From the IMG/VR virus record IMGVR_UViG_3300044294_000573, positions 1-45,720 of that record: a stretch of DNA of 45,720 nucleotides, one strand, 5' to 3'. The DNA comes from a virus. The notes under the pieces were generated by a model. The model did not search any database. It was given only the letters and a program-made list of their open reading frames with translations, and was not told the DNA's origin. Numbering within the stretch: the stretch's first letter is position 1; each line of letters opens with the position of its first letter. Shown one piece after another: positions 14,588-39,526 of the stretch. The position numbers and the translations under genes were made by a program.

Positions 14588-14996
14588 TTGGCACCTCAAT
14601 AAATCTTAATGTTGCTCGGTAATAGTCACCATCTGACACCGTTGGAAAACCTTTTACTGTATCCGCCTCAATAGCACCTTCAGCATGATTAAAAATCACG
14701 TTGAATTGGCGTGTGTCATGCGGATATTCAAAAACCAATGTGAATTGTTCATCTTGCAAAGCTGACCAGTCTAGGATCACTGATAAAACTGAGCGCTTAA
14801 TCCATCCCTGATTGTCAGTTTTAGATAACAGTGTGATTGGTCTACCTGACTTCTTCTTTCCTTCTTGAATGATCAAGGTTCCATCCACGGCGTACTCTTG
14901 ATTTTGGTCAATTGGCTTCCAAGCAAATTCGTCAGACCATAAAAAACCGTCCTCAAGTGGGACGGATTCATTTGTTGCATTTCGTTTGAGTCTCAT
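14577..14996 (-). CDS. Hypothetical tail protein downstream of the tape measure (139 aa)
   Basis: A 139-residue protein (MRLKRNATNESVPLEDGFLW, later KKKSGRPITLLSKTDNQGW and EYPHDTRQFNVIFNH). In siphovirus order, the gene just after the tape measure encodes a distal tail or minor tail protein, and the size and beta-rich sequence fit. It overlaps the tape-measure stop (TAATG). Codons 11-17 carry a perfect terminator-like hairpin. Confidence 0.65.
   Translation of the reverse strand: MRLKRNATNESVPLEDGFLWSDEFAWKPIDQNQEYAVDGTLIIQEGKKKSGRPITLLSKTDNQGWIKRSVLSVILDWSALQDEQFTLVFEYPHDTRQFNVIFNHAEGAIEADTVKGFPTVSDGDYYRATLRFIEVPNAN
14941..14965 (-). terminator. Intragenic terminator-like hairpin
   Basis: CCGTCC, 7-base loop, GGACGG, followed on the minus strand by TTTTTTATGG, inside the first 20 codons of the 139-residue tail gene. 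The U-run encodes part of GFLW. Confidence 0.65.
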
Positions 14997-17900
14997 TACA
15001 TTCTCTTCTTAGCTTGTTCAAGTTGATTAAAGAAGCTATTCACCATGTCTTGTTGAGATGGATCGCCTTGGAACTCAATATCTTGTCCACCAAATTCAAA
15101 CCGATAAGTAACAGTCTTAGATGATCCTGTCTCGATATTCGGCATCTTAATTTGCTGGATAGACGGAGCTTCGATATTTGGTGCAGAAATTTTCGGTGTT
15201 GGACCCCCGATAGAGCCTTTACTATCTAAACCGTCCAAAATTTCTTGCATCCACGCTTGAGATTCATTGCGACCAATCTTCGCATCAAATGCACCACTTG
15301 CAGATCCTCCATTTAATGCAGTTCGCAATTGATTGTTCATTCGTGTGATTGCTTCATTCTTGAGTTCTTCAGCACGACCTTTTTCCATTCCGCCGGCGAT
15401 CAACTGATCATAGAAGTTCTGAGCCATTTGATTTTGACCGTCAGCCAATTGACCTAGACCTTTAGCCGTTTCAGCTGCTTGTGCCTTTCGCTCTTTATCC
15501 ACCCGCGCCATAGCCTGTTCCCAAGTCTCAGCAACCTCCTCTGCCTCCTGTTTGGCAACACGACCAAGTTCACGGAAGCCATCGGCAGCTGATCCGCGAG
15601 CAGTCCGACCAATACGATCAACCGATTCATTCAGTTCATCCATTGATTTAACAGAGGCTTTACCCATGCTATCAACTGATGATTCAAGGTCATTTGCTGC
15701 CAATTGAGATTCATACCACGCTATCTTTGCAACATCACCAGAAGCATAGATTTTATCGGCCATATTGATTAATGCTTGCCTAACTTGCTGTGCTGATGCA
15801 GTGCCACTTTGCTGCATGATATTAAATGCTTTAACCTGGGAATCAGCCATTTTGTTAGCTTCTTCTCTTGAGGTGATACCGAGTAACTTATATGCCTTTT
15901 CAACCTCAGAAATATTAGCAGGCAGTTTTCCGTTTACTTCATCTAGGTAACGCATACCCATTTCTACTTGTTTAGCTGATAAAACACCCTGCTTTTCAAA
16001 TTCAATCAGTTTGGCTTTCGCAGCATCAATTTCAGCTGGGCTTTTTGCTTGATCCGCCCACTTTTGCCAAGCCTCATAAGTTAGCTCTGCTGCTTGTTTA
16101 CCAGTTGCACCCATTAATTCAAGGTTTTTGGTAAAGGTTTCTAAAGCTGTGGCTTTGGTGGTAAAGCCCTCAGAGACTCGATTTAAAGAAACATCAAGAT
16201 CAACACCTAAAGCAGCAGCCGCTTTTCGTCCTTGAGCTAGTCGTGAATCTAAACTTACTACAGCAGCGCCTGCCTCTTGCTCAATCGCTTTGACAATCGC
16301 TTTGCCAGTTTTATCAAACTCAACTGCTAAACCTTGAGCTGCAATTTGCGCTTCAATGGTTTTTTTGGTTTGACTTGATAGAGCTACACCACCTTTGGTC
16401 GCTGCTTCGATTTGTGCCGAAGCCCAATCCTGTGCTGCCTTGATTTTTTCATCACTGATTTTTTTACTTTCAGCCTGATAAGCTTTCTCTTTCTTATCAA
16501 GTTCAGCAAGTCCTGCAACTGCTGCATCAATCGCTGATTGATCACCTGATTTTCTTGCATCAACTAATTGCTGTTGCAGCTTGATACGCTCATCACTAAT
16601 CGCTTTATAGTCAGAGACATGTTGAGCTTCTTGCGCTTTTAGATCAGTGAGTGTTTTTTGGTTGTTGGCAACACGTTCAGCATTCTTTTCATCTTGGGTT
16701 AAACCAATCTGACGTATTGCTTCAACACCAGCCGATTTAAACTCCATCGCTGCATCGGATGATTTCTTGTAATACTCCTGTGCTTTCGCACTCATTACTT
16801 CAAAATCTTTCAAAGCCTGTGCAGAAGTATCACCAAAAGTTATTTTTGATTTCCAGTAGCTAAATGCACCTGCAGCATCATAAGCAGCACCAATAATTAA
16901 ATTGATACCTATATTAATTGCTTTAAAACCATCACTAAGAAAACCAAATACAACATTTACAGCCTGAAGTGCTTTAGTAAAGCCATTGGTTTTGTCTGAT
17001 GCTGAATCAATTCCACTAGAAAAATTGAATATTTGCCCAAGAGTCGTGTTAATTACGTCAACTGTAGTTTCAAATACTGTGCCGACCGTAGCACCAAGAG
17101 ATTTAATCGCATCGTATGCAGATAACAACGCAGTTTTAAGTGCTTCAATAGTCTGAGGATCAATCTTTTTAAGTTGATCACCAAACCATACAAATCCGTC
17201 ACCAATATCGCTTAAAAGAACTTCAACAATATTTAAATTATCGGCAATAGTTGATAGCCATTGAGCCACTGTTGCACTTGCACCATTGGCCTGATCCATC
17301 TCACCAATGAGAATCTGCCAAGACGTTGCGATTTTTTGGAGTGCATTACTAATGGTAGTTGGCATTTCAGCATATTGAGCGTCAACACCCGCTTTCTGTT
17401 TTTCCAGTGCTGCAAGTACACGTTCCGCACTGAGTTCTCCATTCTCAGCCATAGCACGGAGTTCGCCAGTGGTTTTACCCAAGCCTTTTGCAAGTGCTTC
17501 TGCTAAACCGTAACCACCCTCCATGATGCTGTTAAATTCTTCACCACGAAGCACACCACCTTGCATTGCTTGAATAAACTGAGTGACTGCTGCTTCTGCT
17601 TCTTGCGTACTGCTACCGCCTAACTGAATCGCTTTAGTGACGGTGCTGGTCATATCAAGTGCAAATTGCTGGGATTTCCCCATATCCTTTGCAACTGTAT
17701 TTAAACGAGTGAACAGTGCCCCAGTGTTATCAAGCGTTGAGTTTGTTTGCAGTGCGATTTGATGTACGCCTGAAATGGCTTGTTCAAAGTTCCCACTATC
17801 TTTAGTTGACTGTTGGATCTTCGCTGAAAGCATTGCATAGCTATCTGCTGCTTCTGCAAGTTCCTTTACGCCCAAACCAACACCTAGCGCAGCCATAGCA

Positions 17901-18004
17901 CCTACAAGCGCATTTACCGCAAACTTTGCACCATTGATTCCTTGATCAAAGCCTGAAGTATTGGCTTGTAAGTTCAATAAGAAATCTAAACTGTTTGAAG
18001 CCAT
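14996..18004 (-). CDS. Tail tape measure protein
   Basis: The 1002-residue protein sets tail length and occupies the tail lumen. The N-terminal part (NLQANTSGFDQGINGAKFAV, later LRGEEFNSIMEGGYGLAEAL and GELRAMAENGELSAERVLAAL) is the tape-measure N-terminal domain. Long helical, Ala/Lys/Gln/Glu-rich stretches follow, including a coiled-coil run near residues 440-540. Hydrophobic patches lie near residues 30-50 and 350-385. The length would correspond to a tail of roughly 150 nm by the usual rule (inference). The ATG at 18004 has tagga upstream. Confidence 0.92.
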   Translation of the reverse strand: MASNSLDFLLNLQANTSGFDQGINGAKFAVNALVGAMAALGVGLGVKELAEAADSYAMLSAKIQQSTKDSGNFEQAISGVHQIALQTNSTLDNTGALFTRLNTVAKDMGKSQQFALDMTSTVTKAIQLGGSSTQEAEAAVTQFIQAMQGGVLRGEEFNSIMEGGYGLAEALAKGLGKTTGELRAMAENGELSAERVLAALEKQKAGVDAQYAEMPTTISNALQKIATSWQILIGEMDQANGASATVAQWLSTIADNLNIVEVLLSDIGDGFVWFGDQLKKIDPQTIEALKTALLSAYDAIKSLGATVGTVFETTVDVINTTLGQIFNFSSGIDSASDKTNGFTKALQAVNVVFGFLSDGFKAINIGINLIIGAAYDAAGAFSYWKSKITFGDTSAQALKDFEVMSAKAQEYYKKSSDAAMEFKSAGVEAIRQIGLTQDEKNAERVANNQKTLTDLKAQEAQHVSDYKAISDERIKLQQQLVDARKSGDQSAIDAAVAGLAELDKKEKAYQAESKKISDEKIKAAQDWASAQIEAATKGGVALSSQTKKTIEAQIAAQGLAVEFDKTGKAIVKAIEQEAGAAVVSLDSRLAQGRKAAAALGVDLDVSLNRVSEGFTTKATALETFTKNLELMGATGKQAAELTYEAWQKWADQAKSPAEIDAAKAKLIEFEKQGVLSAKQVEMGMRYLDEVNGKLPANISEVEKAYKLLGITSREEANKMADSQVKAFNIMQQSGTASAQQVRQALINMADKIYASGDVAKIAWYESQLAANDLESSVDSMGKASVKSMDELNESVDRIGRTARGSAADGFRELGRVAKQEAEEVAETWEQAMARVDKERKAQAAETAKGLGQLADGQNQMAQNFYDQLIAGGMEKGRAEELKNEAITRMNNQLRTALNGGSASGAFDAKIGRNESQAWMQEILDGLDSKGSIGGPTPKISAPNIEAPSIQQIKMPNIETGSSKTVTYRFEFGGQDIEFQGDPSQQDMVNSFFNQLEQAKKRM

Positions 18005-18056: not shown

Positions 18057-18584
18057 CTAGTCTTGGTTGTCGTCAAAGTCTAATTTATGCTGTGTCTGTT
18101 GGATCAATTCATCTAGCTCACGAATCATCGCAGGCTTTGTTTGCTTGCCATTAACACTTAAAAAGCGACCACATGCCGATAAGGCATTTGTCATTTGTTC
18201 TATCTCAAGCCAAAGCTTGGCAATTTGTACTTGCAAGCCGCTTTGCATCTGACGAGCCAATTCCTCTTGCTCGATATAGTATTTTCGTATCTCATGACCT
18301 CTTCCATTGCGCTCCATCATTCCTAGATGCTTAGTCATATCCACCGAGATAATGTATTCAATTAGGGTAGCGTTATTGGCTTCCATTTTTTGGTGGAGGC
18401 GAACGTAATCAAACCCCTCTTCAAATCCACACTGGGAGATTCTGCGCTTAATCCATGTTGAAAAGTCCTGCTTGCTCTCTAGCATTTTGTGCAGGTCACG
18501 GGCATTTACACCCAACTGGACTTTTCCATTTAATTCAACTTCGACAAATGGAGTTTGGTTTTCAATTTTTACAATTGCATTCAT
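18057..18584 (-). CDS. ant: AntA/AntB-type phage antirepressor
   Basis: This 175-residue protein has an N-terminal AntA/AntB domain (LGVNARDLHKMLESKQDFST, then EGFDYVRLHQKM and the YIISVDMTKHLGMMERNGRG block). Such proteins inactivate phage repressors, as in P1 and P22. A C-terminal helical part (LWLEIEQMTNAL, DELIQQTQHKLDF) follows. The ATG at 18584 has GGAG seven bases upstream; an in-frame ATG at 18605 is a second option. Its leader contains a structured RNA resembling the P1/P7 C4 antisense RNA, which would control it. It lies inside the late operon between tail genes, far from the immunity region. Confidence 0.88.
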   Translation of the reverse strand: MNAIVKIENQTPFVEVELNGKVQLGVNARDLHKMLESKQDFSTWIKRRISQCGFEEGFDYVRLHQKMEANNATLIEYIISVDMTKHLGMMERNGRGHEIRKYYIEQEELARQMQSGLQVQIAKLWLEIEQMTNALSACGRFLSVNGKQTKPAMIRELDELIQQTQHKLDFDDNQD

Positions 18585-18606
18585 TGATCTGCTCCGACTA
18601 CTCATT

Positions 18607-18687
18607 AAAAAAAGAAACACTGGCAAGAAGATGCAATGAATAGTCGAAACGACCATCTTCCTTTCGGGGATCAGCCTAGCCAGTGGT
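18607..18687 (-). ncRNA. Candidate C4-type antisense RNA controlling the antirepressor
   Basis: On the minus strand a nested fold is seen. An outer stem CACTGGC/GCCAGTG (18679-18685 with 18618-18624) encloses a small CCCCGAAAGG hairpin and a second stem GAAGATG/CATCTTC (18654-18660 with 18627-18633), which itself contains GTCG-TTT-CGAC. The outer stem is followed by TTTCTTTTTTT, a terminator tail. The unpaired segment ATTCATTG is an exact 8-base complement of CAATGAAT, which includes the antirepressor start codon. CTGATCC matches the Shine-Dalgarno segment GGAGCAG at 6 of 7 positions. This is the arrangement known for C4 RNA upstream of ant in P1/P7. Family assignment is from memory of the fold. 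Confidence 0.7.
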
Positions 18688-18689
18688 GC

Positions 18690-18732
18690 GCCTGAATTTC
18701 AGGCATAAAAAAACCTGCCACTAGGACAGGTT
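18690..18732 (-). terminator. Two hairpins upstream of the C4-like RNA
   Basis: On the minus strand AACCTG, 9-base loop, CAGGTT is followed by TTTTTATG, a terminator-like unit at 18712-18732. A second perfect inverted repeat, GCCTGAAATTCAGGC (18690-18704), follows directly. These would insulate or process the C4-like RNA from upstream transcription. Confidence 0.6.
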
Positions 18733-18772
18733 CGGTTAAAACGTATTACGGCTTGTTGGGTGAATTAGGTAT

Positions 18773-18796
18773 TAAAAAACCCGCACTTGGCGGGTT
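18773..18796 (-). terminator. Intrinsic terminator after the DUF4124-like gene
   Basis: On the minus strand AACCCGC, loop of 5, GCGGGTT, then TTTTAATA. It lies 13 bases beyond the stop of the secreted-protein gene. Confidence 0.85.
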
Positions 18797-18808
18797 TATT
18801 TAAGTTGG

Positions 18809-19207
18809 CTAGAAATCTTGAATTGTTGTTAATATGTCATTTTTAAAATACAGGTATTTTGTCAATCCTGGTCTTACGCGATATACCCATTGTTCACTTG
18901 TTCCATTAACACTTGTTGTCACATTTTCCTTATCAGGATAACCCCAACTTGATTTATATGCTTCTGTTTTTGTCATTCCTATTTTAGGTTCTTTTCTAGC
19001 TGCCCATTCTGCCTCGCGCTGCTCTCTTGCAGCCTGTGCGCTTTTATACTCATTTTGTTTCTTTCTTATAGCGTCCGCCTGCTCCTTGCTTCCAGTACAC
19101 GGTTTGTCTTGAAACAATAAACTACCACCAACTTTGCACTGATAAACCTGAGCAATGGCAAATTGCGAGATTAACGAAACCCCAACTGCAAATAAAATCT
19201 TTTTCAT
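18809..19207 (-). CDS. Secreted DUF4124-like protein
   Basis: A 132-residue protein with a clear Sec signal peptide (MKKILFAVGVSLISQFAIA, cleavage before QVYQC). VYQCKVGGSLLFQDKPC follows, which is the two-cysteine DUF4124 pattern found in periplasmic proteins. A basic, coiled Gln/Glu/Ala-rich stretch and a C-terminal beta part (PGLTKYLYFKNDILTTIQDF) complete it. It sits inside the tail operon with its own terminator, so it looks like a moron expressed for the host cell rather than a virion part. ATG 19207 is chosen over an upstream TTG because it starts the signal peptide. Confidence 0.8.
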   Translation of the reverse strand: MKKILFAVGVSLISQFAIAQVYQCKVGGSLLFQDKPCTGSKEQADAIRKKQNEYKSAQAAREQREAEWAARKEPKIGMTKTEAYKSSWGYPDKENVTTSVNGTSEQWVYRVRPGLTKYLYFKNDILTTIQDF

Positions 19208-19275
19208 GATGTTATCCAATTGTTATTAATACACTCAATTTAACAAATGGTCGAAATGAAGTCATTAAAAAATTC

Positions 19276-19473
19276 TCATCTTCTTTTTACTTCCCAGTCC
19301 ACAGCATGATTTCCATTATCGCAATCATGGCTCACACATTCACCTTTATGATTGACTTGAATTGGACCACATCCCTCACAAATAACAGTTGCTAGATAGT
19401 TCGGTTTACATTCGTTAATGAAGCCGTTTTTCATGTTGTAAGTTTTGGCGCATTGAGCGCAATATTCAGCCAT
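19276..19473 (-). CDS. Small cysteine-rich, probably zinc-binding protein
   Basis: A 65-residue protein with CAQC, CEGC and SHDCDN motifs plus extra histidines, suggesting one or two bound zinc ions. No DNA-binding or enzyme family can be assigned. It is preceded by the 187-residue tail gene and followed by the secreted protein gene, and no strong Shine-Dalgarno sequence is visible. Similar short Cys-rich proteins are often found in tail regions of Acinetobacter phages (from memory, not checked). Confidence 0.6.
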   Translation of the reverse strand: MAEYCAQCAKTYNMKNGFINECKPNYLATVICEGCGPIQVNHKGECVSHDCDNGNHAVDWEVKRR

Positions 19474-38682: not shown

Positions 38683-38764
38683 GTTTACCTCAATAAACTA
38701 TAAGTTTCCGTTAGTAAACCATAAGTTTATTTTAGTTTCAACATGTTTGTTTACTATAGGAAAC
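38683..38764. promoter_or_regulatory. OR-like operator array between cro and cI
   Basis: Three 16-bp inverted repeats of one type: GTTTACCTCAATAAAC (38683-38698), GTTTCCGTTAGTAAAC (38704-38719) and GTTTACTATAGGAAAC (38749-38764). The first two start 21 bp apart, two helical turns. A degenerate left-half site lies another 21 bp on (38725-38740). Consensus GTTT(A/C)-N6-(T/G)AAAC. Confidence 0.8.
38713..38741 (-). promoter_or_regulatory. Predicted cro promoter (PR-like)
   Basis: On the minus strand TTGAAA (38736-38741), 17-base spacer, TTTACT (38713-38718). The -10 box is covered by the middle operator. The transcript would start about 25 bases upstream of the cro ATG. Confidence 0.6.
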
Positions 38765-38782
38765 AATTATGAGGGATTTTTT

Positions 38783-39526
38783 ATGAGCTCTATTAGTGAT
38801 CGTATAATTCAAAGAATGACTGAGTTAAAAGTTCGTCAAGTTGATTTGATAGAAGCAACTGGAGCTACTAAAGGTGCTGTTTCAAAATGGGTGGCAGGAA
38901 CAAATGTACCTAAAGCTGAATATTTACCAGGACTAGCAGCAGTGTTAAAAACTACTCAAGAATGGTTATTAACTGGAAAAGAGCCTGAAAAATTAAATAC
39001 ATTTAAAATGCAAGAATTCATGGATAAACATGGGCTTAAAAAGATTGACGATTCATCTTTTGATGTAAATGACATTCATGAACCAACTGTAGTTGATTAT
39101 GAAATTGAAAACGGTTTTATTTGGATCGATGTGGTAGAAGCAAATTTTTCATGTGGCACAGGTGAATCAATTGAATTTCATTTTGATGTAATAAACGGTA
39201 AGTTCCCTTTTCCTCCTTCATTTTTCCAAAAGAAGTATGTAGATCCTAGATGTATGAGAATCATTAAAGCTAAGGGTGACAGTATGTCCGATTTTATCCA
39301 TGATCAGGATTTAGTTGGCATCGACATTTCTCAAACGGAAATCATAGATGGTGAAATTTACGCGGTCTATTTTGAAGGTGAAGGCATGATTAAGCAGATA
39401 TTTAAAGAAGAAGGTGGAAAGCTAATCTTACATAGCCTGAATCCCAAATATCGTGATAGAGAAGTAACAGAACAGAATGGTTTAAATTTTAAAGTTATGG
39501 GTCGTCAATTTTGGCGTGCAGGATAA
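38783..39526 (+). CDS. cI: CI-type prophage repressor with S24 peptidase domain
   Basis: A 247-residue LexA/CI-type repressor. The N-terminal helix-turn-helix is SDRIIQRMTELKVRQVDLIE, then ATGATKGAVSKWVAGTNVP. The C-terminal S24 domain has Ser167 (KGDSMSDF) and Lys204 (MIKQIF). The self-cleavage site may be Cys124-Gly125 (NFSCGTGE). ATG 38783 has gaggg seven bases upstream; the longer ORF reads through operator DNA. RecA-stimulated cleavage would trigger induction upon DNA damage. Confidence 0.92.
   Translation: MSSISDRIIQRMTELKVRQVDLIEATGATKGAVSKWVAGTNVPKAEYLPGLAAVLKTTQEWLLTGKEPEKLNTFKMQEFMDKHGLKKIDDSSFDVNDIHEPTVVDYEIENGFIWIDVVEANFSCGTGESIEFHFDVINGKFPFPPSFFQKKYVDPRCMRIIKAKGDSMSDFIHDQDLVGIDISQTEIIDGEIYAVYFEGEGMIKQIFKEEGGKLILHSLNPKYRDREVTEQNGLNFKVMGRQFWRAG

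Follow-up and report, generated by a model that had tools for sequence, protein, structure and literature searches.

An int-alpA-type RNA in a prophage antirepressor leader probably represses translation by C4-like antisense pairing

The window, as we call the whole 45,720-nt stretch analyzed (IMG/VR record IMGVR_UViG_3300044294_000573), is a prophage-like virus record in which the structural genes lie on the minus strand between an integrase gene, int (1-1254), and a gene for a CI-like repressor (38747-39526). Its closest phage relatives are Acinetobacter phages throughout. On the minus strand of the tail operon, positions 18057 to 18584 form ant, which encodes a 175-aa antirepressor with an AntA domain and a weak ORF11CD3 domain. 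The match to Pfam AntA (AntA/AntB, PF08346) covers the full domain (E 5.2e-24; 85.1 bits against a curated cut-off of 27), and the product also matches phrog_5817, "anti-repressor Ant" (8.1e-60). That Ant acts against the CI of this prophage is assumed from its protein family. Together with the RNA described below, ant occupies the place that an earlier note on this DNA had given the unit, between a small gene (18809-19219) and the tape measure gene (14996-18004). Immediately 5' of the RNA is a terminator-like hairpin of the preceding transcript (18711-18733, minus), and a search of the minus strand from 18500 to 19300 gave no promoter-like site. In the window (18692-18740, minus) and at the corresponding place in relatives, there is nearly always a terminator whose sequence varies by phage; a conserved T-run and a hairpin, ATGCCTG...CAGGC, follow it, an arrangement with no obvious room for a promoter.

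Directly ahead of ant, the minus strand from 18686 to 18607 encodes an 80-nt element that scored 101.5 bits with R1, a covariance model built from antirepressor leaders only. An R1 search of the window returned no second copy. The earlier note had described a nested three-stem RNA that ends in a U-run, and this description was borne out: with exactly these 80 nt, the fold was better than that of 198 out of 200 shuffled sequences (z -2.56), compared with no folding signal for an arbitrary 101-nt slice (z -0.25). The conserved order is stem P1, CUAG, a small P2, CGAAA, P3 with an inner hairpin and an exposed TATTCATTG, the 3' arm of P1 and the U-run; P1, P2 and P3 form a three-way junction. The 5' arm of stem P1, CCACTGGC (18679-18686), pairs with the 3' arm, GCCAGTGT (18617-18624); in the window, the outermost pair is not formed. 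The P2 region, GGCTGATCCCC (18666-18676), was placed by alignment A1. The outer stem of P3 joins 18654-18661 to 18626-18633, with 95.6% of cells paired, and encloses the antisense segment GTTTCGACTATTCATTG (18634-18650), which consists of one arm of the inner hairpin and the exposed TATTCATTG (18642-18634). Stem P1 is followed by the terminator-like U-run, TTCTTTTTTT (18607-18616), and U-richness at this position was seen in all aligned ant leaders.

Comparison of homologues supports this structure. Among 20 distinct antirepressor leaders, 89% of cells were paired in the named structure versus 33 to 52% with slid partners, and eight pairs were changed on both sides, a result that none of 500 shuffles gave. 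Five of the stem P1 pairs in alignment A1 carry changes on both sides. When 48 distinct P1 arm pairs drawn from ant leaders and int-alpA loci were examined, 364 of 384 cells were paired, versus 244 ± 10 with shuffled arms. At the level of sequence comparison, stem P1 is confirmed by these paired changes. In alignment A1, P2 takes one of three sequences, and which of them is present does not follow the target. The fold predicted for the free element does not agree in every detail with the conserved P2/P3 model (-22.7 versus -18.3 kcal/mol).

The antisense segment is complementary to the leader of the gene that it precedes. GTTTCGACTATTCATTG (18650-18634) pairs with target site 1, TAATGAGTAGTCGGAGC (18607-18591, minus), over 17 contiguous positions, 13 of them Watson-Crick and 4 G-U. 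The pairing score of 33 compares with 12.9 ± 2.3 for shuffles, none of 5,000 of which reached it, and the computed energy of the duplex is -27.5 kcal/mol. The element's own complement excepted, no stretch on either strand of the 45.7-kb window complements the loop as well as site 1 does. Site 1, defined by pairing and covariation, covers the Shine-Dalgarno (SD) sequence GGAG (18595-18592) and bases upstream; judged by sequence, it is the dominant contact, and it was absent from the earlier note, which had instead reported a match to the start codon. That match was upheld: ATTCATTG, within the exposed 18642-18634, is an exact complement of CAATGAAT (18586-18579, minus), here called site 2, which covers the ATG at 18584. 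The second segment that the note had reported, with a 6-of-7 match to the ribosome binding site, did not hold up. Its best candidate, CTGATCC in P2 opposite GGAGCAG, is not conserved, and it was rejected since locus L060 has the same leader with a P2 that reads GAGCGACGGTTC and P2 switches independently of the target. Site 1 also holds an ATG in frame with ant (MSSRSRS-MNAIV...; window 18606-18584, minus), as it does in most homologues of the window's loop class; because this ATG is without an SD sequence of its own, it is probably an incidental consequence of the target sequence.

The loop and its target change together between phages. The pairing core was kept in all 14 distinct loop/target combinations despite the changes in them. 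Loop CTATTCATT goes with target AATGAGTAG, loop CTGCTCATT with AATGAGCAG (L172) and loop CTGTTCATA with TATGAGCAG (L045), and L053 lacks one base in the loop and one in the target. Between the window and L045 or L172, an A-to-G change in the loop is matched by a U-to-C change in the target. A loop change from U to C opposite a retained G turns a wobble pair into a Watson-Crick pair (L009 and L172), and in the 3' flank of L045 a U-to-A change faces an A-to-U change. A second loop class, CATGTTCA, goes with TGAACATG both upstream of the SD sequence and at the start codon (L005 and L110). In L114, the loop is CATATTCA and TGAATATG stands at both sites, so that three places have changed together (CATATTCA, TGAATATG and ATGAATATG). 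Swapping partners among the 14 distinct ant/rha loops lowered the score at both sites (z 4.9 at site 1 and z 3.6 at site 2, both with p 5e-5) in swap/permutation tests that count related sequences as independent. The site 2 match thus tracks loop class, and by this sequence criterion the start-codon match is a real second site. Since loop and target change together in related phages, the RNA most likely keeps ant off.

The same leader was found in front of genes other than ant. A search with R1 alone gave matches in 27 of 176 Acinetobacter genomes, and most of the 20 R1 loci fetched have AntA genes downstream. Others precede P22_AR_N genes (L161 and L172), KilA-N/P63C genes (L162, L163 and L167, with L168 near-identical) or a T5orf172/MUG113 gene (L164). 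The CATGTTCA/CATATTCA class stands ahead of Rha genes (L114, which was tested, and the similar L093, L110 and L112) and of a P22_AR_N gene (L104). The cassette is therefore re-used before several unrelated antirepressor-type genes, namely AntA, Rha, P22_AR_N, KilA-N/P63C and T5orf172/MUG113. Because the leader and the first codons (MNAIVKI...) are all that these loci have in common, the RNA travels with a translation start and not with one protein family. These observations bear on another explanation of the locus, an ordinary intrinsic terminator with a conserved leader in which the complementarity is a side effect of the conservation of start-codon and SD sequences. The homologous stretch of phage TRS1 is annotated as a putative terminator, and short common words do occur in both loop and leader; we nevertheless consider this explanation very improbable, given the shuffle and swap results, the coordinated changes at several positions and the sharing of the cassette by unrelated downstream genes.

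The earlier note had likened the RNA to C4 of phages P1 and P7 and had named the lack of a C4 hit above threshold, together with that of a small RNA from 18607-18687, as evidence against itself. With the C4 covariance model (RF01695; cut-off, 45 bits), no match was obtained in 18500-18800 even at E<=10 or in the whole record at E<=0.001, and a scan of the window against Rfam at the gathering level also gave no match. This negative is informative because the same model finds C4 of phage P1 (68.8 bits), the leader RNA of P4 (74.9 bits) and, in 101 of the 119 Acinetobacter genomes examined, matches that exceed the cut-off. A true C4 RNA would fit the gene order, the antirepressor target and the three-stem layout, all of which are as in phage P1 c4. 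Known C4s, however, score about 65 to 84 bits, R1 finds none of them, and the junction, the length of stem P1 and the position of the antisense bases are all different. Membership in C4 was thus rejected, and we regard it as highly unlikely. The mode of action that the note had drawn from C4, antisense pairing at the antirepressor translation start, is well supported by the comparative data.

The family that the element resembles is int-alpA (RF02996). The window element aligned to this model over its full length (1-71, cmscan) with 27.2 bits and an E value of 8e-4, which is below the cut-off of 35.8 bits. Close homologues score above it: L005 with 38.9 bits, L085 (phage qsb1) with 35.9 bits and L090, the L074 RNA, whose P3 and loop are those of the window, with 38.3 bits. 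Among 13 whole Acinetobacter genomes, 9 have exactly one int-alpA match, and in several of these, including G001, G003, G004, G010, G011 and G012, this match lies within the ant leader, which had been located independently, starting from the ant protein. In the larger set, 21 of 119 Acinetobacter genomes have int-alpA matches. In the reverse direction, R1 matches 19 of 50 int-alpA loci (E up to 0.0036), including classical loci from other Gammaproteobacteria (L122, L125, L129, L131, L134, L140 and L142). The shared features are the P1-P2-P3 junction with its CUAG...CGAAA core, an 8-bp P1, a P3 loop that matches bases after stem P1 and a small P2 with the same alternative sequences; the three P2 sequences of the ant leaders recur in classical int-alpA RNAs, and the P2 of L125 is exactly the window's GGCTGATCCCC. 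The window RNA differs in its longer P3, which contains an inner hairpin and 17 nt of antisense sequence, and in its place: many classical copies directly follow the integrase gene, whereas this one precedes an antirepressor gene of the tail operon and is separated from int by about 17 kb. On these comparisons we file it as a divergent int-alpA RNA, the window copy's own score being below the cut-off. In the literature searched, no function for int-alpA was found, and the one article that mentions the family lists it in a table only (PMC12370729); a hint of function may have been published elsewhere.

Classical int-alpA RNAs share the loop-target relation. Thirty classical loci from other Gammaproteobacteria were examined, many with an integrase gene directly upstream. 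Their short P3 loop (e.g., ACCTTC) complements bases just past stem P1 (e.g., TGAAGG) and has a second complement in the SD region of the gene that follows. The match of each loop to its own downstream gene was lost when loops were swapped among the 30 loci, with z 7.2 for site 1 (0 of 20,000) and z 4.7 for site 2 (1 of 20,000), related sequences again being counted as independent. For single short-loop RNAs, shuffle tests were mostly non-significant, so that significance lies in the joint swap test. The tail is unpaired in the Rfam consensus structure as printed; therefore, the model-based choice of matches should not create loop-tail pairing. These sequence data suggest that the whole int-alpA family shares the antisense design. 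We lean slightly towards a broader proposal, in which int-alpA is a second C4-like class of antisense immunity RNA whose fold is unrelated to that of C4, each copy silencing the adjacent downstream gene across Gammaproteobacterial integrative elements; in Acinetobacter phages, it would have turned into a portable cassette that, with its loops recoded, guards five or more unrelated antirepressor-type genes and determines cross-immunity groups.

Given the fold, the complementarity to sites 1 and 2, the joint change of loop and target and the re-use of the cassette that sequence comparison shows, the ant leader probably contains an int-alpA-type antisense RNA that represses antirepressor translation in the manner of C4. 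Termination at the U-run, processing or both would free the RNA from the leader transcript. Its P3 loop would then pair with ant mRNA over the SD sequence, and over the start codon as well, and block ribosome binding. In trans, it could act on ant mRNA made by its own phage and by superinfecting phages with a matching leader, and read-through mRNA that still carries the RNA would be shut in cis through the same pairing. Ant would in this way be kept off in the lysogen by a second control beside CI, and we infer a layer of immunity that is distinct from CI, as the earlier note had proposed. The loop-target code (CTATTCATT, CTACTCATT, CTGCTCATT, CTGTTCATA, CATGTTCA and CATATTCA) would predict which prophages are able to repress each other's antirepressors and bears on prophage induction and polylysogeny in Acinetobacter.

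Pairing in cis alone would also be compatible with the data, trans action being proposed by analogy with C4. On a cis-only reading, which we consider unlikely, the leader is an attenuator or switch: stem P1 and the U-run end most transcription before ant, the SD sequence of read-through mRNA is hidden in the loop-target helix, and ant needs late-operon antitermination or a cut in the leader. The predicted fold of the read-through leader, in which the loop sits on the SD sequence in cis as one long helix, agrees with this reading, as do the U-run that ant leaders carry and the position of the target, always a few bases past stem P1. A real U-run is, however, often absent from classical int-alpA RNAs, and the closest analogue, C4, the 5' end of which is made by RNase P, acts in trans. 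A further point against it comes from orphan copies, which keep the folded RNA and its loop while the adjacent target has been replaced or lost (L085, which is phage vB_AbaS_qsb1, and the L013 group) or is lost (L169 and L173). A device that works in cis alone would have no use for this RNA. Such copies are possibly trans-only antisense RNAs directed against other phages; as sequences, they lean towards trans action, although decay is also possible. For the qsb1 orphan, no target was found at a recognizable gene start in the first 49.9 kb, where TGAACATG occurs three times, once within the RNA element itself.

A second, structurally different module lies before the ant start in L013, L014, L024, L047 and L075, after the int-alpA-type RNA where one is present. 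It is built of a terminator hairpin, GCCATACAGATATGT-CTCGTTACC-GCATGTCTGTGTGGC, and a T-run after it; the hairpin loop, CTCGTTACC, is the complement, exact or nearly so, of GGTAACGAG at the SD sequence of the same ant gene. In L047, GGTGACGAG stands at the ant SD sequence and the stem is paired differently. The module had no Rfam match in the loci scanned.

The proposed system can be set beside several known ones. In N15, a processed RNA controls the antirepressor; in the 7.9 kb of N15 searched, Rfam gave nothing at E<=0.05, and tblastn turned up no Ant homologue that was convincing. In phages P1 and P7, C4 lies just ahead of the antirepressor operon, and its target begins a few nucleotides after the RNA and reaches the SD sequence. 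The phage P1 order is c4, a2, b2, icd, ant1, with a2 annotated as starting 4 nt after c4 and b2 as lying 11 nt before icd; the window order is RNA, site 1/SD, ant, with the RNA immediately ahead of ant and the target in between. C4 differs in that it uses two antisense segments, a' and b', whereas in the window one P3-loop segment matches both sites. Antisense control of an antirepressor is thus known, and what is new is the different RNA fold. C4-style control of antirepressors would then use at least two RNA folds with no apparent relation to each other, and the orphan RNA family int-alpA would gain a testable function. A comparable action has been described for sar of phage P22, a different, small RNA that binds ant mRNA by base pairing and keeps its translation from starting (PMC12197685). 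The Group 1 sRNAs of A. baumannii AB5075 are C4-type, numerous and expressed, with targets not identified (Weiss et al. 2016, PMC5320573). Their expression was determined experimentally, and they resemble the window RNA in host genus, phage origin and variable antisense loop; they differ in that they were assigned to the C4 motif, whereas the window RNA belongs to a separate family. About 19 to 26 true C4 matches were found in each of the Acinetobacter genomes G017, G020, G021, G058, G064, G065, G072, G091, G093, G106 and G112, numbers that fit the large sRNA group reported for AB5075. C4 and c4-a1b1 are both listed by Weinberg et al. 2010 (PMC2864571). In satellite phage P4 (L152, 8420-8507 and 8615-8705, both minus), the leader RNA is a strong C4 match. 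Upstream of it, an isrK match of 60.8 bits lies above the cut-off and a c4-a1b1 match falls just below its own, an arrangement that phage P1 shares.
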